A program made the translations under genes and the position numbers. This document shows, piece by piece, positions 1 to 64,000 of a stretch of DNA of 64,000 nt. Within the stretch, counting starts at the first letter, position 1. Every line of letters starts with the position of its first letter. This DNA comes from Diplocarpon mali. Its lineage: Eukaryota; Ascomycota; Leotiomycetes; Helotiales; Drepanopezizaceae. The notes under the pieces are model-generated. The model was not told the origin of the DNA. It ran no database searches and was given only the letters and a program-made list of their open reading frames with translations. Location: contig JAENRP010000231.1 in the NCBI GenBank assembly GCA_024741835.1, positions 1 through 64,000 on the forward strand, read 5' to 3'.

Positions 1-3000
1 TATTTTTTTTTTATACGCTTTTTACCTATAGGCCGGGCTTAAGAGTTAGAAAACGAAACTAGTAAAACAAACAAATAAGCTATAGAGTCGCAAAAACAAT
101 TAAAAATAGTACTAACTTAGATATTGTTGAGATGGGTGATACAGCCATCACTCTGATGTATTGTCATGTGACCCTACTGCTTAGTCAGTAGGATGTTGAC
201 ACGTATATAGCTGTAGGGAAGAAAGGGGTAACCTTCCTTCCCTAACTCTTACCAATATATCGACCATCGACCTCTAGAAGTTTCCTATACCTACTGCGCC
301 GACTCACTTAAGCTCAATAGATATCAATTTTCCTTAATTCTCTTTAAGGGATAGAGAGAACTATTATTAGATAATACTCTCTTTATAAAGCGCCTACTTC
401 TTTTTAATAGTTTACTATTAGTATCGAAAGAGTCCGGTCTTAGTATTATAAGAGCTTTAGTGTTTTATAAAGATGCTAATATAGTTTGATAGCTTCTGCT
501 AATAAGGAGGGAGACTTATATTATAGCATTATTATTATTATCCTCTTTATTATTATTATTATCCTTTAAAGAGTCTTCTACTATAGAGGGGGATAAGGCG
601 GGCAATTTAATAGATAATACTTCCTTTTCTTTGCCTTTGGTTAATATGAGTTGCAGGCTGGGCCTAGGAGTTGTATCGGAGGGTTTAGCATAAGGTTTCT
701 TAGTATTATACTTTTCGAAAAGGATTGTCTTATCGATTATATTATTAGCTTCGATATTATTATTAGTGCCTTTTATCTTAGTTTAGGACTTATCCTTATA
801 TAGTTATAGCTCTAACTATTAAATCAGCTTTTAAGTATAGGTAAAATTATTAAAAAGTTCTTACTTATACTTCTTTAAATATATTATCAATTGAGTTATA
901 TCTTTGGAGAATAACTCCTTTACTATTATTACTACTAATAGATCATTCTATAGCCGTTTCCTTATAAGTGCCTCTAATAGTAGGCCTCCTTTTATTATAT
1001 TAAGTGTTATACGAAATTTGGCTAACGATTTTCTAGCAATACTTTATCTCGTAGTACTAAGTCTCTTTATACTAATAGAATCGATAAGAAAATCTTCTAA
1101 GTCTATGCTATTCTCTAATGAGTTATTGCTAACAACTTTTGTATAGTTATTACTAATAGTAAGAAAGCTACCTTTTCCTAGTTCTCTAATAGATTCTATA
1201 TTAATAAATGTGCCTTATTTAATAAATATAGAGAATAGAGTCGTCTTATTAGAGATATACTCCTTTAGAAGTATCTTCTCTTTAATATTTAATTCTTTCT
1301 ATTATACTGCATTTTGAGCTAGATTTAGTAAGATCTATTAAGCATTCTTAAGGCATTAGGATATAAGATTTGATAATTTATAGGATTTTTCCTAAATAGC
1401 GAATTCTCCGGTTGATTATTTAGTTGCTGGAATTATATAGTAGTTAATAGTTCTATTATTAGGTAGATTGACCTGCAAGCTAAGCCTAGGAGTTAATCTT
1501 ACAAATCTTATATTAGTATTAATCTTAGTAGTAATAACTCTTAAGTAGTAGTCAATTCTAATAAACTGTATAAGCTTGGGATATATTATTAGTTTGTATA
1601 AAGATTTATATTAAGTTAATAGAGCACTTAGGTACAATCTATAATGCATCTTTAGTATCTATTGTATTAAGCTATAAGTTATATTATAAAAGTAGGTAGA
1701 AGGGGGGTTTAGCTTTTTATCTAAGGTCTAGAAGTGGTATTAGTATATTTTTAGTTCTTTTTATACTAATATTAAAAATGAATTCTTTTTACAATTATTA
1801 TGACTATACGTGCGCACGGCGCTTAAAAAGGCGCAGCTAAACAACTTAAGCATATTTAAAAAGCCTTTGCTATAGAATGATATAAAGTTGTCAATAGTTA
1901 GTATAGCATTATACTAAGTAGGGGTCTATATAATATTATAGAACAATTTGAGGGCTTTAGGTGCTACTTTAAACTTAGAAAAGCCTAATGATATATCCTT
2001 TTTGATTTGGCTTACTATTCTATTGCTAGTAGCTATAATTATATAATTTCCTAGATATAATTAAAATAAGGTTAGGTCGGGAGCGGTATAAAATTTGTAA
2101 ATATTAGATAATACATCTTTATTAGTAAGGCCTATTGTTGCTAATCTATAATACTGCGTATATTAGCGTTTATAAAAGGTATAGAACTTTTCAAAATTAA
2201 AGTCCTTAAATATTCCTATTATAAACTTTGCAAGTCTTATCTTTATTTTTAATATTACTACTATCTTAAAACTGTTGCTATACTATAGTATTATCTTTAT
2301 ATTAAAGAGGACCTAATAATATTTTATAAAGATGATATTTATATTAACTTCGGATTTCTCCTTAAGAATATAGAAGTCACCCTTTAATTTCTTATACTTA
2401 ATAAAGAACTGTATAATATTATCTATAGAAAATTCGTCTTATAGCAATTTTATAATTTGCTTAATAGCTCTTATTGTCCTTTCTTAGGCTAATAAGACTT
2501 CTCCTTAACCTTCTTTTTTTAAACGCTTTATTATTAACTTATAGAATTTGAGAACAAATTTTTATAGGTTATTAGGGAAAGATTGTATAATATCAGCAGT
2601 ATCCTTTTTAATATTATTAAAAATTTCTAGTATATTAGTAATAGTACCTATTTCTTTATTAGACAATTTATCTTTTAAGTCTATAATATTATATGTATTG
2701 ATCTATAGGCCAGGCCCGCGAGTCATTTTCTTTACTATTAGTATTTAAGGTATTTAAGGCATTTCTAAGGATAGTGACTTAAATTTATCTAAGTTAGAGG
2801 ATTAGTGGTTAAGCAGGTTAGCTGCTTAAGTTCCTAGTATTATAGGCACCTCTAGCTTAGGGATATTCTCCTTATATACTGATTCTACTTATAGGCCAGG
2901 CCTATAAGTCAAATTCTCCTTATTAGTTATTCCTATTAAGGGTAGTAGCATTTTTAGGATAATAGGGATAATAAACTCCTATCTTTCTAACTTATTATCA

Positions 3001-3834
3001 AAGTAATTCATAGTATACTTAATAAGATAAGTCATCTTTTCTTTTATAATAAGTAGACTATATTGCAACTGTTAAAGGCTAAGTATATCTAAAATAGTTT
3101 AATTAAGAAGTGTAAAATTATTATACTATAAGGGTTCATCTTTTATAGTCTAAATGGTAGAGTATATAATAGTGCTTAAGAACCTAATAAATTTTCTACC
3201 TCTAATGCTATTTCCCTATAGCTTTTTTATACCTTCTTAGATAGTGAAATGATTTAATACCTATATGGCCTTTGCTATAGGTTAGTATATTTTAAAGATT
3301 TTGCTAAGCTTTTGTAGGGCGTTATTAGTAGTAATATTAGTTATAAAGTAGGTTTGGAAAAGTATACTATAGGTGCTACTTATAAACTATAATAATCTTT
3401 TTATATACTTATTCTTCTTATCTCGATTTTTTTAAAATAAATCTATTAAATTAGCATACTCTTAATATTCCTATAGAAATTTTTCATAATCAATCCCTTT
3501 TGTCTTAAGCTTATTCTTAAGAAAATTATTAAAGCTTAAAAATCCTTCTTTTATAGTAGAAATTCTATAGTTTAATACTTTTATAGATAAGTTTAGGAAT
3601 ACTTGCTATTCTATTTTACCTAATGTTCTATAGGTGCTTACTATATCTTTTAATGATTTTAGAGCTTTTCTATCTTATAAGAAGTTACCCTTTAATATTA
3701 GTTTATTATTAGTAGTATTTAGGGGTTTGCTGTTTAAAGCTATAACTGATATATTCTTCTTAGGTATGGCTTTCTTGCTTAAGCTTAGTAGTGCTATAAT
3801 GAATTATTTGGTAGAGGGGGGTAGTTCTAAATAA
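1..3834 (-). pseudogene. X2: long degraded ORF of unknown family, paralogue of X1
   Basis: On the minus strand one frame reads as a plausible protein from about 3834 down to about 320 and resumes at 124-1 beyond solo LTR A-1. It is rich in Lys, Asn, Ile and Leu and looks helical. Stops sit where Gln or Trp would be expected. No domain is recognised. It is clearly related to X1: shared stretches include FNNFL, ERTIRAIKQI versus LKTIKRAIKQI, DNIIQFF versus INIIQFF, and APKALKLF versus DPKALKAL, in the same order. Five 8-codon palindromic cassettes lie in it at 24-46, 649-671, 1471-1493, 2701-2723 and 2887-2909. All read in phase as T-x-x-(P or L)-x-L-x, usually ending in Val. The left end is outside the window. 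Possible roles include a second gag-like structural protein or cargo, and neither can be shown. Confidence 0.55.
125..319 (+). repeat. A-1: solo LTR of Copia family A
   Basis: 195-bp LTR starting TGTTGAGATGGG and ending CTCAATA (CA decayed to TA). It is flanked on both sides by the perfect 5-bp duplication GATAT (120-124 and 320-324), with no internal region. This is the product expected when an element is lost by recombination between its two LTRs. It interrupts X2 of B-1. Compared with other copies it keeps more TG/CA (for example the TCATGTGAC box), so it may be among the younger or less mutated A insertions. Confidence 0.93.
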
Positions 3835-4319: not shown

Positions 4320-7300
4320 GGGAGGGTAGTAGACTCGATTCTCTAGGCTTAAGTCGACTTAATTATTAGTTCTATTATTACTTTAGAGTCTTCTTCTCTT
4401 GCGTTAGTTCTTATTTCTTAGCGATTTCTTAGCTTTAAGGACCTCTTTTAAAGGATCTTCTATTAGTACCCTTAGATTTAGTAACTGAGGTTCATTTAAA
4501 CTATCTTATAAGCTTAAGCCAGCTGAGTCCAACCTCACTTATAGGCTAGGCTCGCGAGTCAGTCTTAGTATTTCTAAGCTTAAGGGTAAAAACAAGGGAT
4601 TGGTTCCTAAATTAGGGTCTGATATTATACTAGTGTCTCGGTTCGTTTCTTTTCCGAATTTTCTTATAATAATGCCTTTATTAATTAGTATATTAAGCTT
4701 TTAGATAGCATTTACTTTATTATACTATCTTTAAGACTTAAGTCTATAAAGAAGCGACTTAGTATTTATAACATTTGTCTAGGCCTTAATAAGGGCGTTA
4801 AAGAGCTTTTAATTATATTCTATAAGGTGGATTTTCAATTCGTCTTTATTAAAAAGAAATAACTCCTATACTTCGATTATAACTAATAGATCTATTTAAA
4901 AGTATTAACTAATAATAGCTTTAAAAAGGCTATTGTAGTTCTTAAGATGAAAAGCTGCTTTGAAAGGTGCAGTAGTTCTACTTATATTAATCTATTGAAG
5001 TACTAGAGGTTGCTTTAGAGTAGAGATTAAAAAGATAAAATCGGAGATTCGAGTCTTATTTTCTAAGGTATTCTTATTAAAGATAGCTGTATAGTTATTA
5101 TAAAAGGCTATAAAACTACCAGTCTTATAAGAATTATTTAAAAGCATTTTAAAAAGGTGTCCCTATTTTATTATTACTATAATTAGATTGCTATTATTAG
5201 TAATAGGTCGCAAGATCTCCTTTTACTTCAATTTTATAGTTATTTGAGCTAGTTGAGATTTTGAACCGAATGCTTAAGAAGTCTATCGACTTATCTTCTT
5301 TATAAATAGAGTGAGTTTTACAATCGATTAAGAGCCGATCTACCTATTAAGGCTTTTAGAAGCTAGCCTTTATTTGATTAGTAGGATCTGATAATCCAAG
5401 ACTTGCTTTCTAATAAAATTGACTTATAGGCTAAGACCGCAAGTGAAAATCGGAATTTCTTTATTAGTAGCACTTGTATCTCTCTTTATTAAAACAACTT
5501 AATTATAAAAACTAAGGCTAATTAATTAAGGAGGTTCAGGGTAGGCCATAAGCTAATAGGTTCCTTTACTTCTCGCTATTATAATTAAGAGGTAGAGTCT
5601 ATAGTATATTCGAAGGACTTATTAAGTAAGACTGAATATCATATTATAAAGAAAATAAGAAGGTATAGAGGTTGCGCTATCTATAGGGCAGAAGTGATAA
5701 AGATATATCTCTGCTTCTTATCTTATAATAGAGAGGAATATACTTATAAAAGCACTATTATTAGTAATAAAATTGTCGGTTAGGAAGCGGCATTCGAAGG
5801 GCTTAGGCATCACAATTGACCCTTCTTCCTTTATTTCCTCCTACTATTTATTACTTAATAATATCGATAAGAAGGAATTATTCCATTTAATTGGCTCTAA
5901 CGCTTTTAAGGCTTTAGGATCAGCCTTGAATTTTATAGCACTTAAAGATGCCTCTATTATTAATAGGTTAGATTTGCGTATCCTTAAAGAGATAAAGAAC
6001 TGATTATTAAAGTAGATTAGAAAAAGATCGATATCTTCTACTATATAAAGAAGTTTAAGGTATTTAATAGTTTTATTAATATCAAATCCTTTATAATTAA
6101 GACTATAGTAAACCGAAAGAGAGCGAATATAAAGGTCGTAAAGTCTTCTCCCTTTAATTCCTACGCTAAGAAGATACTATCGAAAGCAAGTCTTTATTAT
6201 AAAGGATATTTGAATATTATATTATTCTTTAAGCTTAAGGTTAAAAATAACCGATTGAGGCATATTGCTATAATTATAAATATCCTAATTAATAGATTCC
6301 TTTTTGCATTCTCTTTTTTATAAGATAAAATAGTCTCGTTCGGCATTTAAGAGATTAGGTTCTTGACTTTTATAATTATTAAAGAATTGAATAATATTTA
6401 TAAGGGCGAACTCGTTTAAGATAAGCTATTGAATCTATTTAATAGCTCTCTTAATTGTCTTTAAAGTAATTAGAATAAGGTCTTCCCTAATATTATCGTT
6501 TTTAAAATAGTTGCATATAAATATAAAGAAGTTAAGAACTAGCTCCTTTAAGTTATTAAAAAAGGAGTCTAAGCGAGCGCGCAATCCTTTGGTTTTAAAT
6601 TGTAAATTAGCTAAGGTAGCTATCGAATGATCTATCCTTTTTAAAGGTTGAGTTAAAATAGGTTATTTAGCTAAAGGAAAGTCCTTTGAAGATTCTGAAA
6701 ATTCTAAAGAGGCTATACTAAGCGTTTAGGCAGTTTATTTAATAGCAGTTTCTAAAATCATTTTAGTAAGAGGTAAGTTAGGTCTAGTTTTAAAATTCTT
6801 ATTTCTAACTCCTAATCTAGGACTATAAGTTAAATTATATAGTTTAGCACTTATTATATCTTTAGGTTAAGAAGCGAATTTTAAGGTAGGCTTGATTATA
6901 AATAACTAATTCCTTTCTTTATTATTAAAGAAATCTTATTTAAACTCTAGTATAAGAGTCCAGTTCTCTTTTAAAATAAGCAAATTATAAGCAGAAGCGC
7001 AAAGTCCTAGTATATTAATAATAGTACTATTAGGTAAGGTAATATCTATAGCTTAATTTGATCTTTTTATAGCCTTATTAGCTACTATAAATACTATATT
7101 AGATAAGCCTACAAATCTGCGATTGCAAATTCGATTGCTTTAGAATTTTACTACTCCTTCTTAAATAATAAAGAAATTAAAAATCTAAATAGCTTTAGCT
7201 ATAGGAGTGTTTTCCTTAAGAATTTTTAATAACACTTGCCTTCTATTATTAGAATCAATATTTATTAGGAAGCGCGAACGAAATAGGAGTCCTCTCTTAT

Positions 7301-7639: not shown

Positions 7640-7965
7640 CCCCTACTTAGACCTTACTCCGATTGACCTATAGTTAAGAAAACAATAACTATCCTTTTGC
7701 GCTAATCTAACTCTTAAGTATCTTTTTAAATTAAAAATAATCAATTAATAGTAACCTCTATTAAAATTACTAATCTTACTTATAGAGCAGGACCAGGAGT
7801 CAAATTTCCAAAAGCGTTCCTTTATAAGACTATATAATTTAACTCGCGGTCTAGGCCTAGGAGTCGATTTAAAAACTTTCCTTTATAAGACTATATGACC
7901 TAACTCGTAGGGTAGGCCTAGGAGTTGTCCTTAAGCCTGCTAAGCCCCTACTGTCTTTTGCAACT
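7640..7965 (-). other. A-2 3' untranslated region with three palindromic cassettes
   Basis: Lies between the end of RNase H and the 3' LTR. Palindromes at 7778-7800, 7842-7864 and 7903-7925 flank two similar spacers that include a repeated run around TTTATAAGACTATAT. Unlike copies inside coding regions, the spacing of these three is not a multiple of three, as expected outside an ORF. The same arrangement is present in A-3, A-4 and A-5. Confidence 0.7.
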
Positions 7966-10306
7966 TTAGTATATTTTTAAATGCTTTAAACTTTGCAACT
8001 ATCTCTAATAGCTTTATAAATCCATCTGCTACTATTTGATCGGTTAAGATATAAGTAATTAATAACTTATTCTTTGCAATAAAGTTGTAGATAAAGTAGT
8101 AAGTAATATTGATATATTTTAATTGCTTATATAAGTATAGATTCTTTATAAGTATAATTACCTTTATATTATCTACTTAAAGATTAATATAGTTCTTATC
8201 TCATTTAATATACTTAGCGAAACCTATATCTTTTAAAACTTAAGTAATCTATAATCCTTATTTACAATTTGATAATATTAATATATATTCGGCCTTAGTG
8301 CTTGCAGTAGCTATTGATTTCTACTTCCTACTTCCTTATAATATAGGTCTACTATATAGTACTACTACGCTTTTAAATATACTTTTCCAACCTTTTATAT
8401 TTGCCTAATCGGAATTAGTATATACCTTAAGCTTTGCACTTATATATTTTGTTAATCTATATCTTACCTTTTATATAATTATCGATCGAAGGTACCTTTT
8501 AAGTCGCTTGATTGCATTTTCGTATTAAATTATTAGATCCTTTAGGTTCTGATTAAGTTGCTTAATAATAAAGGCGATATCTGGTCTTATATATACTATA
8601 GTATATATAATCGCTCTAATATTCTATTAGTACTTCTTTAGATCTTCTCTTTGCTTATTTTCATTAGTAGGCTCTAACTTATTATACTTTCCTTTAATTA
8701 GAGTACGCTTTGGCTTAAAGTTGGAAGTATAAGCAAAGAGTCCTATTTAATCTAGGATCTTCTTAATATACTACTCTTAGTCTAACTAGAGTTCTTGAAT
8801 AGAGCGGTTCCTTATAACGCAGATGCTAAGGATCTTATGAATTCCCTTTAGATCCTTAGTATTAAAACGTTTCCGAATTGTTATAAAGAACTAATCCAAT
8901 TAAGTAGTTGTTTTTACAGCTATAGTAATATCGTCGATATATAGTAGCAACTTAATTCTACGCTTAATATAAGTAAATAGATAAAGGTTAGCTAGGCTTT
9001 AAACGAATCCCATTTCTATTAGAGTAGAATTATATAAGAGGTTCTAATCATAGGCTAATTGTTTAAGCTTATAGATACTATAGAGTATATAAAGAGAGTA
9101 GCTAGCGCGTATAAGAATACTATCAGGTCGGAAGAGAAAAATCCGTTCCTTTATAATCGCTTTAGTAAATGCATTTTTAATATCGTACTATTTATATTCA
9201 AGGTCCTTAGCGGCTACTATTACTATAAATATGCAAAGGGTATTTATACAAACTATCGGCGCGAACGTATTGAAGTAGTCTTCTTTATACTGCTAAAAGA
9301 AGCCCTTAGCTATAAGCCTTGCCTTATAACGCTCTAGGGTTCTATCTGCATATATCTTAATTATAAAGACCTACTTTATTAATACTAGGTTTATATCCTT
9401 TAGTATTAGTTCCTTTATTTATATACTATTTATAGTAAGAGAGCTTATCTTCTCTTAGATTGCCTTACTTTATACTACTCTATTCTTTAGATCGTTAATA
9501 GCTTTGTTATACGTTTTTAAAAGAGAGATTTTCATTATCCCCTTAGCGGCTAGGAACGTATTATCTTTATTAAAGCTCTATTGAAGTTCGAGCTTATAGA
9601 TCTTATGCGCTATTATAGCCTAGATACGCTTAGACTCTTATTTATCTAAGGTATCTTTTAGTTCTAAGTCTCTATTCCTCTTTAAAGACAGAGGTTCAGC
9701 TGTAGGTTTTATAGGCTTATTATCTAAGGAACTGCTTTCTAATAGTAGAGGCTTATTATTACTTATACCTATTTTAAGAATATCCTTTACTATAAGTGCT
9801 TTAACTAAAGGAATAACGATATTAAAGTTGTTCTATACTTTAAGCAGTTTGCAGACAATAGGAATAGTCTATTTGGCCTTTAGGCGATTAATAGGTTGTC
9901 GATCAGTAGGTACGCTTAATATACCTAAGTTAAAAGAAAGGGGTTATTAGTTCGGCTTAATAGTATTACTATTAAGTAGTATACCTTGCGAATCTCTAAG
10001 TATATAGAGCTTTAAGGATAGCTCTCCCCTATTTCGAGATTTATTAAACTCAACTATTAAGGATATAATTACTTGCCCTAAATCTGGCATATATACTATC
10101 TATTGCTTTATTATCTATTTAATATATCTAATAAATATATACTTTCTACCTTAGTCTATTAGCTTCTTACTCTTTATACCCGTAGGCTAGGATTTTAAGC
10201 TAGTATAAGAATAGCAAACGCTTTTAAAGACGCAGATATAGTCTAAGCTTAGTTTCTATTTAAAATATACCTTATATAGTAATATTTAAGTACTATTGAC
10301 TATTAA
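7966..10306 (-). pseudogene. A-2 Copia reverse transcriptase and RNase H
   Basis: Copies element RNA into DNA (RT) and removes the RNA strand (RNase H). On the minus strand the RT active site YIDDI is intact at codons 8930-8941. The RNase H end reads KHINITYYFI then, further on, TYIPTDQIVADGFTKLL with decayed positions, the usual Copia C-terminal signature of a loading helix followed by ADGLTK. Many stops stand in place of Gln or Trp, so it cannot be translated. C-1 sits just upstream, in the linker between integrase and RT. Homologous, differently decayed copies lie at 29300-30980, 34930-37290 and 49690-51370. Confidence 0.88.
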
Positions 10307-18648: not shown

Positions 18649-19118
18649 AATTGCAAGCCTGGCTTAAGAGTTATTTTTAATAAAACCGCAAGATCTACTT
18701 ATAGTCCTAGCTTAAGAGTCGATTTCCCAGAAATGGCAAGATCTACTTGCAGTCCTAGCTTAAGAGTCGTCTTTAATAAATTTGCGAATTTCACTTACAG
18801 TCCTAGCTTAAGAGTTATTTCTGCGAATTTTACTTACGATCCTAGCCTAAGAGTTATTATTAGCGAATTTGCAAAATCTACTTACAATCCTGGTTTAAGA
18901 GTTATTTTTATTAAATTCACTTATAGTCCTAGTTTAAGAGTTATCTTTAAAGATACCTTGCAATTTACTTATAATCTTAGCTTAAAAGTCCTTTTTGCGA
19001 ATTTTACTCGCAATCCTAGCTTAAGAGTCTATCTATTCTCCTTATCCTTACTTAATTGTATTAGGGCAAAGAGTGCACTTTCCTTAAAGGAATCCACTTA
19101 TAGGTCTAGCTTAAAAGT
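18649..19118 (-). repeat. Array of ten in-frame palindromic cassettes in A-2 polyprotein
   Basis: Ten 23-bp units (ACTTATAGT-CCTAG-CTTAAGAGT and variants), first at 18649-18671, last at 19096-19118. Read on the minus strand, the five units I followed (18649 to about 18855) are in one continuous frame leading into the pre-integrase domain; each gives TLKLGLQV or close to it, often followed by D-L-A or K-F-A. Spacers are 5 to 20 codons and unlike each other. Because the units are palindromic, the plus strand is open too (18637-19152) and reads TYSPSLRV repeats; that plus ORF is a mirror effect, not a gene. The same ten-unit array occurs in A-5. Confidence 0.85.
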
Positions 19119-21894: not shown

Positions 21895-24800
21895 TAAGTT
21901 GGAAAAATCTTAGTCTTTGTCCAAGGGTTTAAAATTGCTTATATTGCCGTCGGTTCTTATAAAAGATTCGGAGGTTGTATCAATTTCTAATTCATCTTTT
22001 AAAGGGAATAAGGTCTAATCGCATCGATAAAAGCGCTTTAATCGATTAACTATAAAGGTTCCTTTAATATCGACTCTATTAAGTTCCTAAAGAGAATAGT
22101 ATCCCTTTTCTTTCTACTTAAACTTAACCTTAAATGGATTAAGCTATTAATAGTTAAGTTTAATATCTATTAATATATTAATACTTTTTATAATATCGTA
22201 GATTAGGATAAGATCATCTTTTCGAATAGGATGCGTTTTAAGTACTTTAGAAGTAGCCTATGCTTCCTTAGCTTTTTCCTAATATTATTTCTTTTATAAA
22301 ATGATTTCCTTTATATCTATATCTTAAAGCTTAAGTTATCGGCATCTTATTATAAGTAAATCGGAATAGTTCTGAATTTGACTATAGTTGAATAATCTCT
22401 AAATAGGCTATTAGGATTTAAGAGGAAGCTATGCCTCTTTATTATAAATAAGGAAAAATAGTATAACTCTAGTTAGTTTATAGATTATCATTCGATAAGT
22501 AAAGAGTATTTTATAAAAGTGTTTTATCTAATTCTTAAATCCTTTATAAGTAACTTTAAATAGCCTATTAAGAATGTCGCAATATCCTTACTTTACTACT
22601 CTATTATCTTTCGAGTTATATACTAAGATTTAAACCTATTTAATACTATATTTTTATAAAAAAGCTTTAATTACTCCTTTATTTTCAAGGCTTCTATTAA
22701 TAGTTAGTTTGCTAAAAAGTCTATAATAATAGACTATATCTTCTTAAAGGAACTTTGCAATAGATTCAAAGTTAGCAGATTTCAAAGGTCGTCCTTTAGG
22801 CCATCCTAATAGGTCTTCCTTTACTAGAATAAAATATATAATCCTATTTTCAATTATTAATACTTATATAATATTAAAACTGACTTTATAAAAAAGGCCT
22901 AATAGCTAGGTTAGGAATAGGGGATTCTCTTTATAACTAGGTTTTTATTTTTAATAAGGGATATAACTTTTTATAAAAGCTTTGCAGTCCTTAAAAGAAC
23001 CCTTCTAAAAGAATTTCCTTGAGAGTCGGTAGTAAGTGGACTTAGCTCCTTAGTAGCTAGTTTCCTTATAAATATCCTAAATAGCCTTAGCCTTTAGTTT
23101 TTTATTATTTAAGCAGAGTTATATAAGATATAAGTTATTACTTCTTTTAAATAATCGTTTTCCTTATATTAGATAAATTAGAGCTTTAGCTTTGAATTTC
23201 TAAAAATCCTTAAGAGCAACTGTCTTTAATCGTTTAAGCGTAATTAAAAATTTCGCAATTTCTTTAAAGTCACTTAAGTAGTTAGGTAATAAAATTCTCT
23301 TATTTAACTCGCAAGCCGGGCTTAAGAGTCGAGTCCCTTTAAGGCGATATATTAATAGATAACTAACTTCGTTTTCTACTTACTTATTAATATCTGTTTT
23401 ATCTTTTTTAATTAAATTAAAGGGGTAAGGGCGAGTTCTTCTTAAAAGGCCGTTTATAGTAGTATTTTTCATTCTTGAAATGTATTTGACTTCAAAGTCT
23501 ATTAGTCTTATTTAAGCAATCCATTTTATTAGTAAGGCTTTAGGTAAATCGCTTATAGCTTTATTTAATTATTCTATTAGTACTTTAGCATCAGTTTTAA
23601 GGATAAAGTAAGTACTATAGAGGTCGCTTCTTATCTTTTTCATTGCTTTTAAAGCTCTTTTGCATTCCTATTTAATAGTATTATACTTTATTTCCGCTGG
23701 ATTCTAAAGACTACTTTTAAAGTAAGCTAGATATCTTTTCTATTAGCTATTAGCTTATTAAAGGATAGCACCCTATTTAATTAAGCTTATGTCAACTATT
23801 AGTATAATTGGCCTAGCGTTAGCTCTATAGTTTATTTTAATTAGATATAGCGCTTTAAGCAACGCCTGCTTTAGTTATTTCATAGCCTTTATTTAAGGTT
23901 CCTCCTACTAAAACTCAGCCCCTTTCTAAAACAAGGAATAAATAGGTGCTGCCTTTTTAATAAAATCCTTAATCTATATACGATAGTATACTATAATACT
24001 AATAAATGCGCGAGCTTCTACTATATTATTATACCTCTTCTATTTATCGATTTTAAGTACTTTAGCCCTTTAAGGACTTCGGCTATTAGAATTAGTAATA
24101 AAACTAACAATTTCCATTAATAGAAGATAGTATTATAACTTCGGACCGACTATTGCTTTTACCTTTTCGAATCGTATAAGCACTTAGTCTAAGTTCTGAA
24201 TATATTCTATTATAAATTACTATATGCTAAGGAGAACTTCTTTATAGTTATAGAATGATCTTAATCCTTTTACTCTTATATCGTCTATATAAGGGAGTAT
24301 AATATTAGGTATATAATCTACTAGTATCTTATAAATTACTTAGATAAATTAAGCGATCGAATTTATAGCCCTTTAAGGTAATCTTATTATCTGAAGTAGC
24401 TTAAAAGGGGTTTAAATTGCTATTATATCTCTCGATTTAATATTAAGAATAAATTGGTCGTATTTAAAGAAAAAGTTAATAAGAGAGCTATAGGTTAATC
24501 CTGCGAATTCATTTAAGAACTTATCTATATTTAAAGGAATATTAGCGTCTTTAATAGTTACTCGGTTTATCTCTACTACTACTATTATTAGTTTATAAGT
24601 TCCCTTCTCTTTCTTAGCAATTAAGAACTATTTATTCTTATAAGGGCTATTATAGAATTTGAGAATACCTTGCTTTAGCCTATCCTTTAATATTTCGATT
24701 ACCTTTTCTTAAAAAGCTTTAGGGACTTTGAATGTTTTCTTTTGCCAAGCTTTATAAGGTATTGTCTTAATCTTAATATAAGGTATAACCTCTTTTCGAA

Positions 24801-26950
24801 TCTGGCTAAGTTCTATTTAGTTAAAAGCTAAGGCGTCCTTTCGATTTATTAAGGTTTTATAAAGTAGTTCGCATTCTTACTCTATTAAGTCTTCTCTAAT
24901 TTTCAATATATTGAAATATTCTTTTATTAGCTAATATTCGATAAGTTTATTAGAAAATCTGCTTATAATAAACTTATCGAATTTGCTACCTAGCTTTAGA
25001 GGTCGAAGCTTCTTATCTTATTTAAACCAATTATCTAATCCTTTAGGCTTTAAGCTATTAGAGATTCCTTAATCTACTAGTCGTACTTTATCAGCCTTGC
25101 TTTTATATATAATTCGAATATTAGCTAGTATTATACTTCTTTACTTCCTTCCTTTTTTATTAAATCTTATAAAACGGTCCGAATTTTCCTTTTTAAAAAT
25201 AAATAAAAGATTTTCTAAGTTATTAATTTAAAGTGCGTAAATAGAAATATTATTAGTAATTTTATTATTTTTCACTTATAAGTCCGGCCTATAAGTGGCT
25301 TTTAGGTTTTTTAAAATAATTAGTAAATTGTCGAAATTTATAAAACAAACCCTCTTCTTTGCTTTATTTTTCTTTTTTCTTAATTATTAATTTAATAAAA
25401 CGCCGATTATACTATTTTTTAAAATTCCAGATTTGATTCCTAGTCTAGGACTATAAGTCAAATCGCTATTATTTAAAATTAGCAAACTTACCTTTCTTTT
25501 GCTATAACTCTTTGCTAGGTGCCTTCTTTTATTAGTATTAAGCCTAGCCCTTATACTAGCTAATCGTTTCTTAAAACCTTATTTTAAAATTCGGCTATAT
25601 CTCCTGCGATAACTATTTATCCTTTTAAAGATCGATTTGTATTTTAAAGACTAGCTTTTATAAGACTATCTTTAAGATAGTTAAATATTAGCTAAGATTT
25701 TAAAATAAAGGGCATTTTTAAAAGAATATCATTTAAAGAATTCTTTATTATTAGAAAGTCAGTATAATTAATAATTCCTTTGACTTTAACCTTTACGTTT
25801 TTCACTTATTTATTAAAATTGTATTTCAATCTAAAGATAGTCGAATAAATAAGGAGTCGATCGCTAACGATTATCAATTAAGTTATTTCTACCACTTTTC
25901 TAGTTATTATATTAACTTTTAAATTATAATTGATTAAAGCCTTTACTTTAATTGATTCTTTTATAAAATAAATAATAATAGGGCTTTTTATCACAATTGC
26001 TAAATAATTTCAATTGATATTTTAAGATATTAAAGCTATTACTATAATATTATAGTACCTTTGGGTTCCTTTATCTTTTGCAATCTAAAGATATTTGATT
26101 AAGGCTAAGTGCTTCTTAAAGTTCTTTTATATTACAATTTCCATTTCCTTATTATTATTCAAATCTTTAAAGGCAATTAAGATATACTTTCTTAGCATTT
26201 TATTAAAGCGTCTAATCAAATTAAATAGGTCTTTAAATGTAAGGTTAATTTGCTAAGCTATAATATTCTTTATAGCTTTCTCTATTGCAGTTGAACTAGC
26301 GTATTTATCGACGAATTTCTCCTATTTTAACATCTATCTCTTTCGCTTAGGGTTAAGGGTCTGCGCAATAACTTCGACTTCTTAATCTTTAAGTTTAAAG
26401 CTATCTTCGTCTATTATATCTTTAATCAATTTATCTACTATATCGGCTTTATCTTTATCTATTATAGTTCCAGATTGTTAAGTGTCTTTTAGCATTTGGA
26501 CTTTATATTAAGATTCCTAAGTTATATATATTAATTTCTAGACTTTGGCTAGTTTTATTAGTATTAAAGGAGTGGTAGATCTAGAAGGACGCCGAGTATT
26601 CTAAGGGTTTTTAGATATAGAAGTAGTATTAATATTAGTAGATATATTATTATTAACCTACCTTAAAATAGAGATACCTCTAACTTTAGTAGCAGTCTAG
26701 TTCGAAGTTTAGTTAGTAAGCACTCCCTTAGGTAGATTGCTAGCTAGACTTATATATATATAAGTTAGGACCTTAGAGTTTATTTCGATAATACGCTTTC
26801 GTTCGGCCAAATCCTTATCCTACTTTATATTATATATTATTATTTGAATAGTCTATAGCTATAAACGATTTTAGTATTTTTTAATAAGGATAGCGTCTAG
26901 CCTAGGATCTTTAATATAAAGCATCTTATACTTATTAATATATATAACCC
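21895..26950 (-). pseudogene. B-1 gypsy pol: protease, RT, RNase H, integrase
   Basis: Minus strand. RT active site reads PYIDDIRVKG at 24265-24294, typical of fungal Ty3/gypsy, and both Asp codons survive. RNase H follows to about 23350. A palindromic cassette (TLKPGLRV, 23307-23329) sits in the RNase H-integrase linker. The integrase zinc and core domains lie around 23150-22300, and the C-terminal module ends with LRELDRVDIKGTF and NRLKRFYRCD near 22020-22110 (some letters decayed), the GPY/F-type end of fungal gypsy. Two more cassettes at 25274-25296 and 25436-25458 lie upstream of RT in the protease-RT region. Broken by many stops. Confidence 0.85.
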
Positions 26951-28215
26951 TAGTGTTAATAAAACGAAGGAAAAGAGGGCAATTATTATAATACTTATAT
27001 AGAGCGCAGTTAGGTTTTTCATTATTGCAAAAGTTGCAGGTTAGTCGTCTTTTATTGCCATTTCCTTAGTACCCTATAGTATTAATATTAGTAGAGTGCT
27101 AATTAAGATCAATTCCTCCTTCTTTAGCCAGCTATTGCGTTCTTATATTAGCTAGTTGTTTTAAATGATAAGAAGTAGGAGTCTAGTAATAGGAATTACT
27201 ATATTAGCTTATAGTAGCTGAGTTTTGCCTATTATTAAATTAGGGAATATACTATTTTTCTTATAAGAGATTATTAATCCTAGTTTTTAAGCTTTAGATT
27301 TGGAGTTTTGTAAATTAGGTCTTAAGTTCCTTAATTCTAAAGTTGGATCTTACTCTTAGGTCGGGCCTATAAGTGAAAGGTATAACTATTAGGTTCTTCT
27401 TTGCCTCTTCTATAACTTCTAGAGCTTTTGAGTATTCTTAGACTAGGCTTTTAAGGTCTTTAGTATAAGAGGGAGTAAGGGCTTTTTCCTACTCTATAGT
27501 ATTAATAGTTCTTTTATTAAGATCTGATTTTAAAGTAAAGGCCGAGAATTCCTTAAATAAGGCAAAGGTTATAAGGTCTTGCTTATCGATCTTAAAATAC
27601 TTGATAATCTTATTTCGAAGTCTAATGGGTAATCTAAGTAAGAAAAGGCGGCCTCTTTCAACTTCGCTAAGTATTTTCTAGCTAATTAAGGTATTTGATA
27701 TATAAGTAAAAGTCTAATAGTAGTTCTTAAGTTCCTTAGGAGTATAAGTGATTAGAACAAATTCCTTTAAGAAAGCTAGGGTATTGTAAATCTGCTATTT
27801 GTCAAATTCGCGGAATTCAGATTTAAGGGCCTTAATAAGGGTTCTTATAAACTATAAGTTTTCCATTTGGAAAGGGATTTAATAATATCTTTGCTTATAT
27901 AGTTATAGTAGTAAGGAAGTTGAGAAATCATATCCTCTTATATAATATTAAAATTGTAATAAGTTTCCTTATATTGCTTAAGGAAATTAGTAATATTAGT
28001 ACCTATAAAGTAAAGAGCGCTAGGGGAACTAGGGAGAGGAAAGTGACTAGTAATAGCCCTGAATGCGGCTATTATCGTTTTATACTAACCGTCTAGGTTG
28101 ATAGAATCTATAAGGGGCAAAGGAGAAGCTTTGATATTATAAGATTGATTGCTAGGAAGAGTACTTCGAAATTCAAAAGGGCTTAAAGAACGTTTAAAAT
28201 CCGAGTTAATCTTAG
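26951..28215 (-). pseudogene. B-1 gypsy gag
   Basis: Minus strand. The capsid part reads SALYFIGTNITNFLKQYKET then EDMISQLPYY and IIKSLSKWK, matching the gypsy gag pattern of a FDG-T-N-ITDFL helix followed by a RLPRYC-type motif. It ends with a zinc-knuckle remnant near 27020-27045 (LTCNFCNNEK, C-x2-C with the rest decayed). A cassette at 27352-27374 lies in the linker before the knuckle. Gag packages the element RNA. Stops replace several Gln or Trp codons. Confidence 0.8.
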
Positions 28216-29051
28216 AGTAATTAAGATAAGTTTGAAAAGATTTAAATAAAGGGTTAGTAAAAAGTTTAAAATTGTTATTATTTTTAGTATTTTCTAGTAT
28301 TAATATTGAAAAAGTAGGTAGTAGTCTTAAGTTGTTTAAGGATATCTTTTTATCCTCTTACTTATAGGCTAGGCTTAGGAGTAGAATTCCGGATTCTATT
28401 AAAAGTTTAATCTGAGTTTGCTAAGAGATTCTAAGTAGGTACTAAATAGCTAATAGGAGTATTATAACTAATTGCAATAAGATAAGGTTTACTTAATCTA
28501 AGACTAATTTCTAAGATAAGGTTTATATCTAAGATTTTTCTTAGCCTTTAGGCTAATTCCTATTGGTCTTTAGAATAAAGGGGTCTTTAGAGATAATTCT
28601 AAGGCAATTTTTAAAGTTCTATTAAGCTAAGGCGGCTGAATTATTAAATTCGGATTTTTAAAGATTCTAAAAAGGCACTTCTAGTTGGAGTTTGCGCTTA
28701 GTATTACTTAAGTACTTAAAACTACTGCTATTTGAGATTGCTATTATAAGGTTCGCTAAACTTTTTATACTAAGAAGCTGAAAATTCTAAAAATCTCAAA
28801 GTTAAGGAAGAAAATAGGGGTTTTTAAAGCAGAGCTGAAAAGGGAAAATCTAAGGTTATTAATAGTTGTTAAATGAAAATCGATAGTTTTAAGTAACTAG
28901 GCGATTAAGGATAAGGGTTTTAGAGTCGATTAAAATGCTATAAGTGTTTTAAAGATGTATTTCAAAGGCCGGTCTTTTATCTGCGAATTAAAAGATTAAT
29001 AAGATTATATAAGGATAGAAATCTTAAGAAATCGGTCCTTGTGTAGGTCAC
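28216..29051 (-). other. B-1 leader and gag N-terminal region
   Basis: Between the 5' LTR and the gag capsid. It holds one palindromic cassette (28360-28382), shared by B-2 (63749-63771), and an AT-rich run of Asn/Ile/Leu codons. The PBS should start at 29051 on the minus strand (GTGACCTACACAAGG); it does not match the initiator-tRNA pattern of A, C and D and its primer is not identified. B-2 has GTGACCTACGCAGG at the same place. Confidence 0.55.
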
Positions 29052-30980: not shown

Positions 30981-31275
30981 AAGGACGACTCCTAGGCCCG
31001 CCTTATAAGTTAGGTTACGTAGTCTTATAAAGGAAAGTTTTTAAATCGACTCCTAGGCCTAGACTGCGAGTTAAGTTATATAGTCTTATAAAGGAATATC
31101 TTTTAGGAAATTTGACTCTTAGTCCTGCCTTATAAGTAGGATTAGTGATTTTAATAGAGATTACTATTAATTGATTATTTTTAATTTAAAGAGATACTTA
31201 AGAGTTGGATTAGCGCAAAAGGATAGTTGTTATTTTTCTAACTATAGGTCAATTGGAGTAAGGTCTGAGTAAGGG

Positions 31276-32532: not shown

Positions 32533-32609
32533 ACTCCTAGGCCCGGCCTACAAGTGGAAATTGGCCCTAGGGAGGAGTCGGAATTGACTCCTAGGCCCAG
32601 CTCGCGAGT
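32533..32609 (-). repeat. Two palindromic cassettes in D-1 gag-protease linker
   Basis: Units at 32533-32555 and 32587-32609, 54 bases apart, so both read in the same frame on the minus strand (T-R-E/K-x-G-L-G-V type), separated by a LGPIS-type linker that is itself repeated. In D-2 the spacing is 48 bases, again a multiple of three. Confidence 0.8.
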
Positions 32610-34615: not shown

Positions 34616-34930
34616 CCCTTACTCAGACCTTACTCCGATTGACCTATAGTTAGGAAAATAATAACTATCCTTTTGCGCTAATCTAACTCTTAGGTATCTC
34701 TTTAAATTAAAAATAATCAATTAATAGTACCCTTTATTGAAATTACCAATCCTACTTATAGGGTAGGACTAGGAGTCAAATTTCTAAAAGCGTTTCTTTA
34801 TAAGACTATATAATTTGACTCGCGGTCTAGGATAAGGAGTTATTTTAAAAACTTTCCTTTATAAGACCTTATAACCTAACTCGTAGGGCGGGCCTAGGAG
34901 TTGTCCTTAAGCTTATTAAGCCCCTATTGT
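34616..34930 (-). other. A-5 3' untranslated region
   Basis: Three palindromic cassettes as in A-2 (near 34755, 34819 and 34879), in the non-coding part between RNase H and the LTR. Nothing else seen. Confidence 0.65.
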
Positions 34931-37985: not shown

Positions 37986-38013
37986 TAGCAGTTTAAGGTT
38001 TTGCTATTTTCTA

Positions 38014-38482
38014 ATTGCAAGCCTAGCTTAGGAGTTGTTTTTAATAAAACCGCAAGATCTACTTATAGTCTTAGCTTAAGAGTCGATTTCTTAGAAATAG
38101 TAAGATCTACTTATAGTCTTAATTTAAGAGTTATCTTTAATGAATTTACAAATTTCACTCGCAGTCCTAGCTTAAGAGTTATTTTTGCAAATTTCACTTG
38201 CAATCTTAGCTTAAGAGTTATTATTAGCAAATTTGCAAAATCTACTTATAGTCCTGGCCTAGGAGTTATTTCTATTAAATTCACTTATGATCCTAGCTTA
38301 AGAGTCGTCTTTAAGGATACCTTATAATCTACTTATAGTCTTAGCTTAAGAGTCATTTTCGCAAATTTCACTTGCGATCCTAGCTTAAGAGTTTATCTAT
38401 TTTCCTTATCCTTACTTAATTGTATTAAGGTAAAGAGTACACTTTCCTTAAAGGAATCCACTTATAAGTTTGGCTTAAGAGT
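38014..38482 (-). repeat. Array of ten in-frame palindromic cassettes in A-5
   Basis: Ten units collinear with A-2 18649-19118, same spacing and total length, with independent base changes (for example the sixth unit is CCTGGCCTAGGAGT here and CCTGGTTTAAGAGT in A-2). The array was therefore present in the family A progenitor. The plus strand is again open by mirror effect (38001-38327). Confidence 0.85.
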
Positions 38483-51370: not shown

Positions 51371-51676
51371 TTAATAGGCTTAAGGACAATTCCTAAGCCT
51401 GCTTTATAAGTTAGGTCACATAGTCTTATAAAGGAAAAGTTTTTAAATCAACTCTTAGGCTTAGACCGCAAGTTAAGTCATATAGTTTTATAAAGGAACG
51501 CTTTTAGGAAATTTAACTCCCGGTCCTACCTTACGAGTAGGGTTAGTAACTTTAATAAAGGTTACTATTAATTAATTATTTTTAATTTAAAGAGATACTT
51601 AAGAGTTAGATTAGCGCAAAAGGATAGTTATTGTTTTCCTAATTATAGGTTAATCAAAGTAAGGTCTAAGTAGGGG

Positions 51677-54219: not shown

Positions 54220-54440
54220 TACCCCTCTGGGGAGACCTTTAAAGGTACTCGCCAGTAACACATATGATATTATAACTTTTGTTATAATCTATAGTTTCGT
54301 ATGAAAAATCAACCTGCAGATATAGGAAATAGAGTAGAGTTCGCTAGCACGCTCTACTCTGGAGTAGGAAATCCACCCCTTAGTAAATCAAAAACAACTC
54401 GCGGGCCCGGCCCGGGAGTAAAAAAAAATCACCCCTTAAT
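54220..54440 (-). other. D-2 3' untranslated region with hairpin and best-preserved cassette
   Basis: Contains a hairpin with arms AGAGTAGAG (54331-54339) and CTCTACTCT (54352-54360) around a 12-base loop. At 54397-54419 lies the most GC-rich palindrome of the window: arms ACTCGCGGGCC and GGCCCGGGAGT around one central C. It has no CpA or TpG, so RIP has nothing to act on. Confidence 0.65.
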
Positions 54441-56239: not shown

Positions 56240-56307
56240 ACTCGCGGTCCCGGCCTAGGAGTGAAATCGTAAGAGTTAGAATTGACTCGCGGTCCTGGAC
56301 CAGAAGT
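56240..56307 (-). repeat. Two palindromic cassettes in D-2 integrase-RT linker
   Basis: Units at 56240-56262 and 56285-56307, start to start 45 bases (15 codons). On the minus strand the frame reads TSGPGPRV, then NSNSYDF, then TPRPGPRV, with no stop between. This is the clearest pair of undecayed cassettes and shows the 8-codon pattern T-x-x-P-G-P-R-V. Confidence 0.88.
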
Positions 56308-57721: not shown

Positions 57722-57792
57722 ACTCCTAGGCCTAGCTCGCGAGTGGAAATTGGCCCTAGTGATAAATTGACTCCTAGGCCCGGCTTGCGAGT
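57722..57792 (-). repeat. Two palindromic cassettes in D-2 gag-protease linker
   Basis: Units at 57722-57744 and 57770-57792, start to start 48 bases. On the minus strand the frame reads TRKPGLGV, NLSLGPIS, TRELGLGV, each eight residues, with no stop. The spacer differs from D-1 by two codons, again keeping the frame. Confidence 0.88.
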
Positions 57793-62542: not shown

Positions 62543-62830
62543 TGTCGTGCAGAATGGGCGGAGTCTCCACTTATTCTGGAGACCCTCTACGTGACTCTGC
62601 TGAGTCATAGACTCTCCCTTTTCTTTCCGAAGTCTCCTTACCATATATATACTAGATAATAATACAATCAATCATCTTCTCCTACTTCTACAAGCCTCCT
62701 AAGCGACCTAATGAAGGCCCTTTAGCCAACTATACCATAGTTATAAGCCCTATAAGCACTTTAATATGCTTTCTCTTTATATACAACCGGCTAAAGGGCC
62801 CTTTGAGCTCTTAACCGACTTTTCGAGTAT
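62543..62830 (+). mobile_element. C-2: 5' end of a Copia family C element
   Basis: 5' LTR 62543-62739 (TGTCGTGCAGAATGGG... to ...ATACCATA), PBS GTTATAAGCCC from 62740, gag ATG at 62766 (MLSLYIQ, then KGPFELLTDFSSI-type frame), cut at 62830 by B-2. TAAAG (62538-62542) is the likely TSD. Better preserved than C-1. Confidence 0.9.
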
Positions 62831-64000
62831 TGTAGAGACCTGAGATGGATAGGTCTTATGATATATATCACATGATCGGCGTAGGACGGTAGGAGGATAA
62901 AAGGGCCACCTTCTGTATATAGAGACAGCGCGTATTGCCATAGTATTGAATATACCCTATATTTGGGACTTATTCCTAATATCTTATTTAAGAGAGCCCG
63001 CTTATAGTACTTTTTCTTCTTTGTTTTTAGGTCTTCCCTTAGGCCTATTCTTGTATTGTCTCCCTTCTGTTTTATATTAGTGACCTACGCAGGGACCGAT
63101 TTCTTAAGATTTCTATTCTTATATGACCTTATTGATCTCTTGGTTTATAGATAAGAGACCGGCCTTTGAAATACGTCTTTAAAATACTTATAGCATTTTA
63201 ATTAACTTTAAAACCCTTATCCTTAATCGCCTAGTTACTTAGAACTATCGATTTTCATTTAGTAACTATTAATAACCTTAGATTTTCCCTTTTCGGCTCT
63301 GCTTTAAAAACTCCTATTTTCTTCCTTAACTTTGAGATTCTCGGAATTTTCGGCTTTTTAGTATAAAAAGTTTGATAAACCCTATAATAGTAATCTCTAA
63401 TAGCGGTAGTTTTAAGTACTTAAGTAATATTAAGTGTAAACTCTAATTAGAAGTATCTCCTTAGAATCCTTAGAAATCCGAATCTGATAATTCAGCCGCC
63501 TTAGTTAAATAGAACTCTAAAAATTGCCTTAGAATCGTCTTTAAAGACCCCTTTATTCTAAGGACTAATAGGAATTGGCCTAAAGGCTAAGAAGAATCTT
63601 AGATATAAACCTTATCTTAGAAATTAGTCCTTAATTAAGTAAACCTTATTTTATTACAATTAGTTGTAACGCTTTTATTAGCTATTTAGCACTTACTTAG
63701 AATCTCTTAGCAAACTTAGATTAAACTTTTAATAGAATCCGGAATTCTACTCTTAGGCCTAGCCTATAAGTGAGAAGATAAAAAGATATCCTTAAATAAC
63801 TTAAGACTGCTACTTACTTTTTTAATATTAATGCTTGAAAATACTAATAATAATAACAATTTTAAACTTTTTACTAACCTTTTATTTGAATCTTTTTAAA
63901 CTTGTCTTAGTTACTTTAAGATTGACTCGGATTTTGAATATTCTTTAAGTCCTTTTAAATTTCGAAGTACTCCTCTTAATAATTAATCTTATAATATTAA
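62831..64000 (+). mobile_element. B-2: 5' end of a second gypsy family B element
   Basis: Plus strand. LTR 62831-63079, starting TGTAGAGACCTGAG. After GTGACCTACGCAGG (putative PBS) it aligns with the complement of B-1 28000-29051, including the cassette 63749-63771 and the start of gag (NSDF-K/E-SL-type codons near 63930). AGTAT (62826-62830) is the likely TSD. It runs past the window end; whether it carries X1 and X2 cannot be seen. Confidence 0.88.

Follow-up and report, generated by a model that had tools for sequence, protein, structure and literature searches.

In the sections of PMC2996958 that deal with them, protein-coding palindromic elements are described for Rickettsia, for Wolbachia and for one archaeal species, whereas various other microbes have PARCELs (palindromic amphipathic repeat coding elements). 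The corresponding part of PMC3733652 presents the Rickettsia palindromic elements (RPE) together with counterparts in Wolbachia and Methanocaldococcus. Here we describe a palindromic repeat of 23 bp from the nuclear DNA of the fungus Diplocarpon mali, starting from a stretch of 64,000 nucleotides (contig JAENRP010000231.1, positions 1 to 64,000; the window). No nuclear fungal precedent for such a palindromic coding element was found in the literature listings consulted, and a literature search with the letters of the repeat returned unrelated matches in the 8 of 41 listed.

A position-weight scan detected 57 copies of the palindrome in the window, in agreement with the roughly 50 reported in a preliminary description of this DNA, and the same threshold was passed four times in ten simulated windows with identical base-to-base frequencies. 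The preliminary description had also proposed a comparison with shuffled sequence, from which the repeat emerges as real: a stricter pattern gave 11 matches in the window versus none in 100 shuffles. In the whole genome the pattern has 2,891 exact sites and, with up to two mismatches allowed, 10,165; the reversed pattern has zero and 30, respectively. The idea that the palindrome is a product of chance or low complexity is refuted by the reversed-pattern and shuffle controls, and its probability is negligible.

The undecayed form of the 23-bp core reads ACTC[G/C]CGG[G/T]CCNGG[A/C]CCG[G/C]GAGT, position -2 being Y and position +24 being R, and conservation falls off sharply outside the unit. 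Its undecayed representative in the window (ACTCGCGGGCCCGGCCCGGGAGT; 54397..54419, + strand) has exactly the sequence given for it earlier. In 171 kb the 23-mer occurs in 34 site families defined by their flanks, corresponding to 22 distinct positions once arrays had been merged by hand, and the flanks of these 22 positions are unrelated to each other. Both orientations are present among the 134 copies in this sequence (52 +, 67 -, 15 not orientable). The unit is oriented because 26 of the 34 site families have bases of one class at both positions 5 and 19; the supposedly symmetric unit is thus a quasi-palindrome that is usually anti-palindromic at this pair, and the broken symmetry implies that the hairpin is not strictly maintained. 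Predicted DNA hairpins of five palindrome sequences range from -7.1 to -10.5 kcal/mol (z -1.95 to -3.5). Upkeep of the hairpin by covariation is not supported: positions 9 and 15 are complementary in 23 site families out of 34 versus about 19 expected (a hand estimate), and pair 5/19 is anti-palindromic. The proposed lack of stops on both strands applies to the undecayed form, which is stop-free in all six frames, but not to decayed copies, which carry stops in some of them.

All palindrome positions that could be classified lie within LTR retrotransposons, which are distributed over many contigs; a free mobile unit should also have hit host intergenic DNA, and this distribution speaks against it. 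On one contig (C1), 21 of the 22 exact sites are located in three AT-rich stretches and the last one in a fragment of an element that is also present in the window. No palindrome with GC-rich flanks, as host genes might give, was retrieved when three fixed positions in either flank had to be G or C, and the presence in assorted host and housekeeping genes that typifies RPE was encountered neither on contig C1 nor in this non-exhaustive flank search. Seven frames, including that of the A array (see below), showed no Pfam family at E <= 0.01, and a comparison of 51 window frames with Pfam gave three single matches (E 0.025-0.031). None of 4,217 candidates was a homologue of the A-array frame at E <= 0.1, and a viral contig collection contained no exact match to the undecayed pattern.

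Three types of junction, which we take to be interdomain linkers on the basis of recognisable motifs, hold the palindrome in coding sequence. In a Copia-like element on the - strand, two copies (56240 and 56285; 56240..56307) lie between the SH3-like region of the integrase and the reverse transcriptase (RT), in phase 0 and with the Y arm first (T-P-x-P-G-x-x-V), and the frame of this integrase-RT linker is open in locus L054. The same element carries two further phase-0 copies (57722 and 57770; 57722..57792, - strand), R arm first (T-R-x-P-G-x-G-V), between the gag zinc knuckle and the protease motif LYDTGAS; a second Copia-like copy has the equivalent gag-protease pair at 32533..32609 (- strand, spacing 54). 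The third junction, between RNase H and integrase, belongs to the Ty3-like element Ty3-1 (23307..23329, - strand). The earlier statement that coding copies sit in linkers is therefore upheld for the recognised ones, as are the in-frame copies at 56240-56307 and 57722-57792. The A array (18649..19118, + strand) comprises ten copies with spacings of 39, 48 and 90 in a 174-aa open frame, where they read T-x-x-P-x-L-x-V in phase 0; ten copies were also found in the array of a second copy of this element (38013..38482, + strand), and a 112-aa open frame covers part of that array. Phase 0 applies to seven of the eight assignable coding positions, and the claim of one fixed phase fails at the Ty3-1 linker. 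The copy at 23307 had been read as TLKPGLRV, but the 144-aa frame of its family crosses the palindrome in phase 1 (..GTRLTVLACKSNKR..), a frame shared by two Diplocarpon coronariae protein models in the database, and all 150 scored copies (262 candidates) can be aligned across the palindrome over the entire 144 aa.

The assumption that copies are generally coding does not hold, as two placements appear to be non-coding. The copy at 54397..54419 is situated in the 3' region behind the RNase H of a - strand Copia-like element, and in locus L003 the end of RNase H is followed by a stop upstream of the equivalent site; this family has ten copies in 171 kb. The second placement is that of the B-type arrays of three copies each. 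The array at 7778..7925 (+ strand, spacings 64 and 61) begins 140 bp into a terminal repeat of 193 bp and is probably non-coding. Its counterparts from the position-weight scan are located at 30988..31137 (- strand; 61 and 66), 34754..34901 (+ strand; 64 and 61) and 51389..51538 (- strand; 62 and 65), so that just one of the eight spacings of 61-66 is divisible by 3. In line with a maintained frame, all ten pairs of exact sites less than 100 bp apart, among the matches listed, have spacings that are multiples of 3. Coding and non-coding placements share their DNA letters: the gag-protease copy of locus L004 differs from the 3'-region copies of L005, L006 and L007 in the central base alone.

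These placements bear on the proposal that the repeat is a functional linker peptide, for instance a cleavage or spacer motif T-x-x-P-G-x-x-V, which passed between retrotransposons through recombination and grew into coding minisatellites, with the palindrome as a by-product. The occupation of three recognised linker junctions, the prevalence of phase 0 and the tandem 3n units of the coding arrays would fit this proposal, but the presence of identical DNA downstream of the RNase H stop and its phase-1 reading at Ty3-1 would not. Moreover, third codon positions (phase-0 count) are almost as conserved as the others, with T at position 3 in 94% when weighted per site family, which is more than a peptide alone would require. 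The two orientations had been considered equivalent in coding; they do share the same phase, but encode different peptides (T-R-G-P-G-P-G-V versus T-P-G-P-G-P-R-V). We thus regard a linker peptide as an unlikely explanation.

The other copies in the window belong to several elements or stand alone. Scan and site families agree on the element of L015 and L020, with sites 3, 2 and 1 at 1471..1493 (+ strand), 2701..2723 and 2887..2909 (both not orientable, the latter in phase 0 in L015), on L014-type copies at 4537..4559, 5422..5444 (both not orientable) and 6808..6830 (- strand), on L012-type copies at 25274..25296 (not orientable) and 25436..25458 (- strand), on an L019-type copy at 27352..27374 (- strand), and on an element shared with L024 at 28360..28382 (+ strand) and 63749..63771 (- strand). 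The position-weight scan added single copies at 24..46 and, with a diverged end (AGT...), at 649..671 (both + strand), a weak, degraded copy at 10178..10200 (score 18.9, strand not assigned) and similarly weak matches at 21872-21894, 37154-37176 and 49114-49136.

The number of palindromes varies between copies of the same element. A 45-bp ladder consists of one, two and three units in five, five and one of the 11 loci displayed (17 scanned), and the Copia integrase-RT linker holds two or three units depending on the copy. Local coding arrays are composed of head-to-tail units of 3n length, as expected of a coding minisatellite, which leaves the single copies at many positions unexplained. Because these arrays are in-frame tandem units, the earlier suggestion of an amplified linker peptide is partly right.

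Empty sites were not encountered. In a genome-wide protein search for the Ty3-1 site all 150 scored copies (262 candidates) were filled, as were all 29 full-span copies in a joined-flank DNA search for the site at L015:1501 (40 of 190 candidates scored). The Ty3-2 linker had no shorter full-span match among the matches listed (150 of 185 candidates scored), and the Copia gag-protease linker gave only filled sites or differences in array size (150 of 189 candidates scored). Six gag loci whose matches were shorter or incomplete (L060-L065) never show zero copies: L060 and L063 have one unit, L062 and L065 two, L061 one intact and one truncated unit, and L064 an interrupted one. A joined-flank comparison across 171 kb, confined to copies flanked by 80 bases in both directions and to the first 60 of 141 rows, likewise revealed no empty site. 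Copies at the examined sites thus differ in palindrome number only, with no presence/absence difference among them; since no empty site was found, the mobility suggested earlier is inferred from dispersal. Direct repeats at the flanks gave a best z of 3.7 among 108 offset/width combinations, a value that includes arrays and is hence discounted. At 17 sites outside arrays, the longest direct repeat was matched by 57 of 500 shuffles and is not longer than chance; only repeats lying no more than 5 nt from the unit are longer (equalled in 3 of 500 shuffles), and their length is not constant. A clear target duplication, which in TIR/MITE-type DNA transposons has a constant length, was seen neither in the 108 combinations nor at the 17 sites, which, like the lack of an empty site, counts against insertion of a module. 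In L064 an LTR-like sequence with 32 exact genome matches sits exactly inside a palindrome. The palindrome as a general integration hot spot was rejected, as none of the six other fetched flanks of this sequence is a palindrome.

A site that is filled at every examined copy of a family could also be a cis-acting DNA or RNA site, i.e. a binding site for a host or element protein, or a structural hairpin, acquired by different retrotransposons that aids replication or integration. The dyad symmetry with its hairpin and the presence in several element families are in line with this alternative, which we nevertheless consider improbable: the place within the element differs (near the terminal repeat, gag-protease, IN-RT, RH-IN, 3' region), the copy number is free to vary, and pairing at positions 5/19 is not maintained. 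Furthermore, two long Ty3-like open frames lack a palindrome in the 4.2 and 6.0 kb examined, which also weighs against an inserted module, and no Rfam family was detected in the window at the gathering threshold.

Transition diversity at the best-sampled site (Ty3-1) is 0.224 in the 23-mer versus 0.094 and 0.119 in its flanks, and at three other sites the divergence of the 23-mer about equals that of the flanks (Copia 3' UTR, 0.077 versus 0.087 and 0.105). Given the much higher GC content of the 23-mer, equal divergence amounts to fewer changes for each G or C. The claim that RIP spares the unit holds in part at most, in this limited sense at three sites, and protection is not general. Among 55 copies of the Ty3-1 site, 31 of 1,265 cells in the 23-mer are transversions, confined to positions 5 and 9, versus 2 of 9,790 in the flanks. 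This excess suggests that sequence may have been exchanged among palindromes; five other sites gave no comparable signal, and an excess at one of six sites tested weighs against exchange. Variation at positions 5, 9 and 15 could instead reflect old subtypes fixed in separate element lineages, a possibility that concerns exchange only and that we view with some doubt. The quiet other sites and the association of position 9 with variable flank positions (+79, r 0.70; -44, r 0.51) are compatible with old subtypes, but position 5 shows a weak association with the flanks (r no higher than 0.34), positions 5 and 9 occur in each of their four combinations (28, 18, 5 and 4 of 55), and the flanks are nearly free of transversions.

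We favour, with a probability of about 0.6, an RPE-like oriented quasi-palindromic DNA module that was dispersed by insertion and then carried by retrotransposons. Each palindrome position would have begun as an insertion of this module, at some time into about 22 positions of several retrotransposon families and in either orientation. Within polyproteins it would have persisted in interdomain linkers without disrupting the frame, predominantly in phase 0, and selection presumably confined it to them. Retrotransposition would then have copied the passenger to about 10,000 sites, with local multiplication as in-frame tandem units at several positions, and its CpG steps would have decayed by transitions of the RIP or deamination kind, probably by RIP. 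Later exchange between palindromes may have proceeded by short-tract ectopic conversion or by template switching at a hairpin-prone site. More tentatively, the repeat might be a selfish nuclear palindromic coding module, a eukaryotic counterpart of the Rickettsia elements, with many independent entries into polyproteins, LTR elements as vehicles and ongoing ectopic exchange via hairpin breakage or template switching. If the module reading is true, it would reveal a route for short foreign peptides into polyprotein linkers that leaves the polyproteins intact. About 10,000 fungal copies in retrotransposons, some of them readable, would make the insertion mechanism of protein-coding palindromic elements testable by comparing strains of one species.

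The repeat resembles coding minisatellites of LTR-element polyproteins in its in-frame tandem units of varying number, but such minisatellites do not account for a single 23-mer that recurs amid unrelated flanks at 22 positions, of which two seem to be non-coding. By description, it has in common with the GC clusters or double-hairpin elements of fungal mitochondria short GC-rich hairpins scattered in AT-rich fungal DNA; unlike these mitochondrial elements, its classified copies reside in LTR retrotransposons on many contigs. PARCELs, as characterised in the relevant part of PMC2996958, are also palindromic coding DNA in tandem arrays, tied to mobile elements in some taxa and present in some eukaryotic microbes, but they encode a 25-residue amphipathic motif (DUF285 type), in contrast to eight codons with a Pro/Gly pattern in retrotransposon polyproteins. 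From RPE the repeat is set apart by its nuclear fungal location, its unit of just 23 bp, its frequent tandem arrays, and its observed restriction to repeated elements without housekeeping genes and without presence/absence differences. The analogy to RPE nevertheless stands: here, too, a short, dispersed, hairpin-capable dyad repeat, imperfect in symmetry at positions 5/19, occurs in both orientations and in frame within protein linkers, which it presumably entered by insertion and which are assumed to be unstructured from their position between domains.

The 23-bp palindrome is a real and very abundant repeat that is organized as a quasi-palindrome at the DNA level. A weight matrix seeded by the copy at position 54397–54419 detected 57 copies in the window (GC content 30.6%), four of them weak, versus a total of four hits above the threshold in 10 simulated windows. 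In the complete assembly (49.4 Mb, 676 contigs) the IUPAC pattern ACTYNYRGKCYNRGMCYRNRAGT matched 2,891 sites and its reversed equivalent none; with up to two mismatches the numbers were 10,165 and 30. Both searches document that the repeat is not a chance product of base composition. A separate pattern that required G or C at three flanking sites on either side, as host genes might provide, matched nowhere. Our sample of 171 kb, which comprises the window and fetched loci, harbors 134 copies; apart from the window, the loci were chosen around palindrome matches, with a few slight overlaps and after removal of four contained loci. Grouping by flanking sequence resulted in 34 families, corresponding to 22 distinct positions after tandem arrays had been merged and one mixed cluster split by hand. 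On the 560-kb contig C1, 21 of 22 exact sites are located in three AT-rich stretches and the last one in a fragment of an element that is also present in the window. Two translated element pieces retrieved matches at E ≤ 0.01 exclusively from the helotialean fungus Diplocarpon coronariae (three proteins, 75–82% identity). The host is therefore taken to be this species or a close relative. The D. coronariae genome of 51.2 Mb is reported to contain 34% repeats, with 20.7% Copia and 5.7% Ty3 elements, and the accessible part of the respective text lacks the string “palindrom” (PMC11527701).

Wherever the carrier could be classified it is an LTR retrotransposon, and the palindrome is kept in frame in the linkers of the polyprotein. 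The classification leaves out the elements behind the loci L012, L014, L015, L019, and L024; the domain names are based on recognizable motifs, and Pfam provided no match to the decayed element pieces. Copia-like elements usually harbor two copies in the gag-protease linker, downstream of the zinc-knuckle gag and upstream of the LYDTGAS motif (spacings 48, 54, or 66; 78 in L062), and the integrase-RT linker contains two or three more. A further copy, the site at 54397, follows the RNase H stop. A single copy is located in the RNase H-integrase linker of the first Ty3-like element (Ty3-1). In the second one (Ty3-2), the corresponding linker varies in 45-bp steps: among 17 loci scanned, six had no anchor match, and the 11 displayed contain one unit (5 loci), two units (5), or three units (1). 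Two further positions are found upstream. An element with 193-bp terminal repeats carries the B array, 140 bp inside the repeat, and the long A array in an open frame of 174 aa. Eight copies of this terminal-repeat-like sequence are present in the window (127–319, 7445–7637, 21046–21238, 31278–31471, 34419–34613, 48475–48669, 51679–51871, and 61838–62032), and a nested insertion (10310–17919, about 7.6 kb) seems to interrupt the element from 7445 to 21238.

Two long Ty3-like open frames in DNA of about 50% GC are devoid of the palindrome over the fetched stretches of 4.2 and 6.0 kb. These frames (L030, 1–4168; L031, 1–6000) are uninterrupted over 1024 and 964 aa, in contrast to most integrase matches of the genome, which contain stops. 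Four of six Copia loci displayed in readable orientation (L047, L048, L050, L053, L057, and L058) exhibit a stop codon between the gag and protease motifs, and L050 and L053 show a tryptophan at this position; the stop represents either a decayed TGG or a read-through codon. The window also includes a locally GC-richer low-complexity stretch at 11381–11735, where the two strands have open frames of 116 aa that overlap each other.

The frame could be assigned, based on the open frame or recognizable neighbors, at eight coding positions, namely the Copia gag-protease and integrase-RT linkers, the Ty3-2 RNase H-integrase linker, the two further Ty3-2 positions (one weak), the A array, the L015 element (weak), and the Ty3-1 RNase H-integrase linker. 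Seven of them use phase 0, i.e., the codon phase T-x-x-P-x-L-x-V, one uses phase 1 and none phase 2. The exception is Ty3-1 and it is firm: the phase-1 frame extends through the palindrome over 144 aa in all 150 scored copies (of 262 candidates) and two D. coronariae protein models in the database follow it as well. The formerly proposed single fixed phase is accordingly a predominant rather than a universal property, and the copy at 23307, which had been cited as an example, is a copy of the Ty3-1 site and reads in phase 1. Because the undecayed unit lacks stops in all six frames, the bias toward phase 0 calls for an explanation; peptide selection, decay to TAG in phase 2, and an insertion preference are candidate causes.

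The undecayed form, ACTCGCGGGCCNGGCCCGGGAGT, folds into a hairpin of -9.9 kcal/mol as DNA (z -2.9). Nevertheless, the symmetry is usually broken at positions 5 and 19, whose bases share a class in 119 of the 134 copies and in 26 of the 34 site families. Since one arm reads ACTCG and the other ACTCC, most copies are oriented (52 plus, 67 minus, 15 undecided). Outside the core, 98% of the copies have a pyrimidine at -2 and a purine at +24, followed by AATT-like letters, beyond which the flanks are unrelated. Coding linkers share these letters with the site that follows the RNase H stop, and the letters recur in two phases and both orientations. Conservation includes the third positions counted in phase 0; with coding and non-coding copies pooled and each site family weighted, T occupies position 3 in 94%. 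These features favor the descent of a DNA module over the convergence of a linker peptide.

Local amplification apparently added to the copy number. All ten close pairs of exact sites (<100 bp apart, among the matches listed) are spaced by a multiple of three. In contrast, only one of the eight spacings in the four B arrays of the window (61 to 66) is a multiple of three; B copies seldom fit the exact pattern and are hence outside the list of ten pairs. Length differences between copies of the same element correspond to complete units, and the junctions of the one-unit loci L063 and L060 are located within the repeated flank. We read such arrays as probable coding minisatellites built on the palindrome.

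The differences between most copies are C-to-T and G-to-A transitions, frequently located at CpG steps, which lead to TATAGG and CCTAGG forms and suggest a RIP-like decay. The palindrome had been thought to be spared by RIP, but at the Ty3-1 site its transition diversity exceeds that of the flanks (0.224 versus 0.094 and 0.119), and it is therefore not spared there. The idea may be partly valid at three other sites, where the total divergence of the 23-mer is similar to that of the flanks or lower despite its much higher G and C content. The pattern of transversions was unexpected. In 55 Ty3-1 copies (the best 54 of 150 scored plus the window copy), all in register, they affect 31 of 1,265 cells of the 23-mer versus 2 of 9,790 in 178 flanking bases. 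They are confined to positions 5 and 9, which also mark palindrome subtypes at other sites, and all four combinations occur (28, 18, 5, and 4 of 55); position 9 partly tracks element subfamilies, correlating with one flank site at r 0.70, and position 5 scarcely does so (r ≤ 0.34). Point mutation fits poorly because of this limitation to two positions, and exchange with other palindromes, via short-tract conversion or template switching, would explain the pattern better. Five further sites (both Copia gag-protease palindromes, the last integrase-RT unit, the Copia 3' region, and Ty3-2; n 10 to 24) have transversions in 4, 11, 3, 0, and 0 cells of the 23-mer, none of them outside positions 15 and 22. 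Their rates lie between or below those of both flanks, some of which are array spacers with many differences, and the excess is hence shown at one of six sites.

The preliminary description had also considered a tiny mobile element, but a presence/absence difference between copies was found at none of the positions compared. All 150 scored Ty3-1 copies (of 262 candidates) are full length, and at the L015 site, where 40 of 190 candidates were scored, each of the 29 full-span matches to the joined flanks is exactly 23 longer than the query. No shorter full-span match exists among those listed for Ty3-2 (150 of 185 candidates scored), and no palindrome-free locus among the Copia gag loci read. 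The nearest approximation to an empty site is the Copia 3' region, where the palindrome is located at the margin of a tandem repeat (unit about 28 bp) and is missing from the other units. It has TGATTTT on either side, a configuration that would result from acquisition of the palindrome together with a second TGATTTT; as the neighboring units vary in length, the extent of the gain is uncertain. The tandem repeat is itself hairpin-like (GCACCTCTATTA..AGGGGTGATTTTTTTT) and lies next to the palindrome in L003 (about 1386–1540) and at 54397 in the window. At 17 sites outside arrays, the maximum length of direct repeats did not clearly surpass that in shuffled pairings (4.59 versus 4.22, equaled in 57 of 500). 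Repeats no more than 5 nt from the unit did (2.71 versus 1.55; 3 of 500), with no constant length, which is a hint only. In L064 (G000:C251:24801-25700) an LTR-like sequence starting with TGTGACGGCGGAAGC sits exactly in the middle of a gag-protease palindrome; it has 32 exact matches in the genome, and none of six other flanks examined is a palindrome.

A nuclear fungal counterpart was not found in the literature covered, which largely excludes subscription journals, so that this absence is weak evidence of novelty. The closest precedents seen there comprise palindromes inserted in frame in Rickettsia, Wolbachia, and Methanocaldococcus (PMC3733652) and the PARCELs (PMC2996958). We do not claim membership in the Rickettsia-type class, because copies in host genes were not seen and presence/absence differences not found. 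In its effects, the fungal unit nevertheless resembles the coding palindromes of the Rickettsia type.
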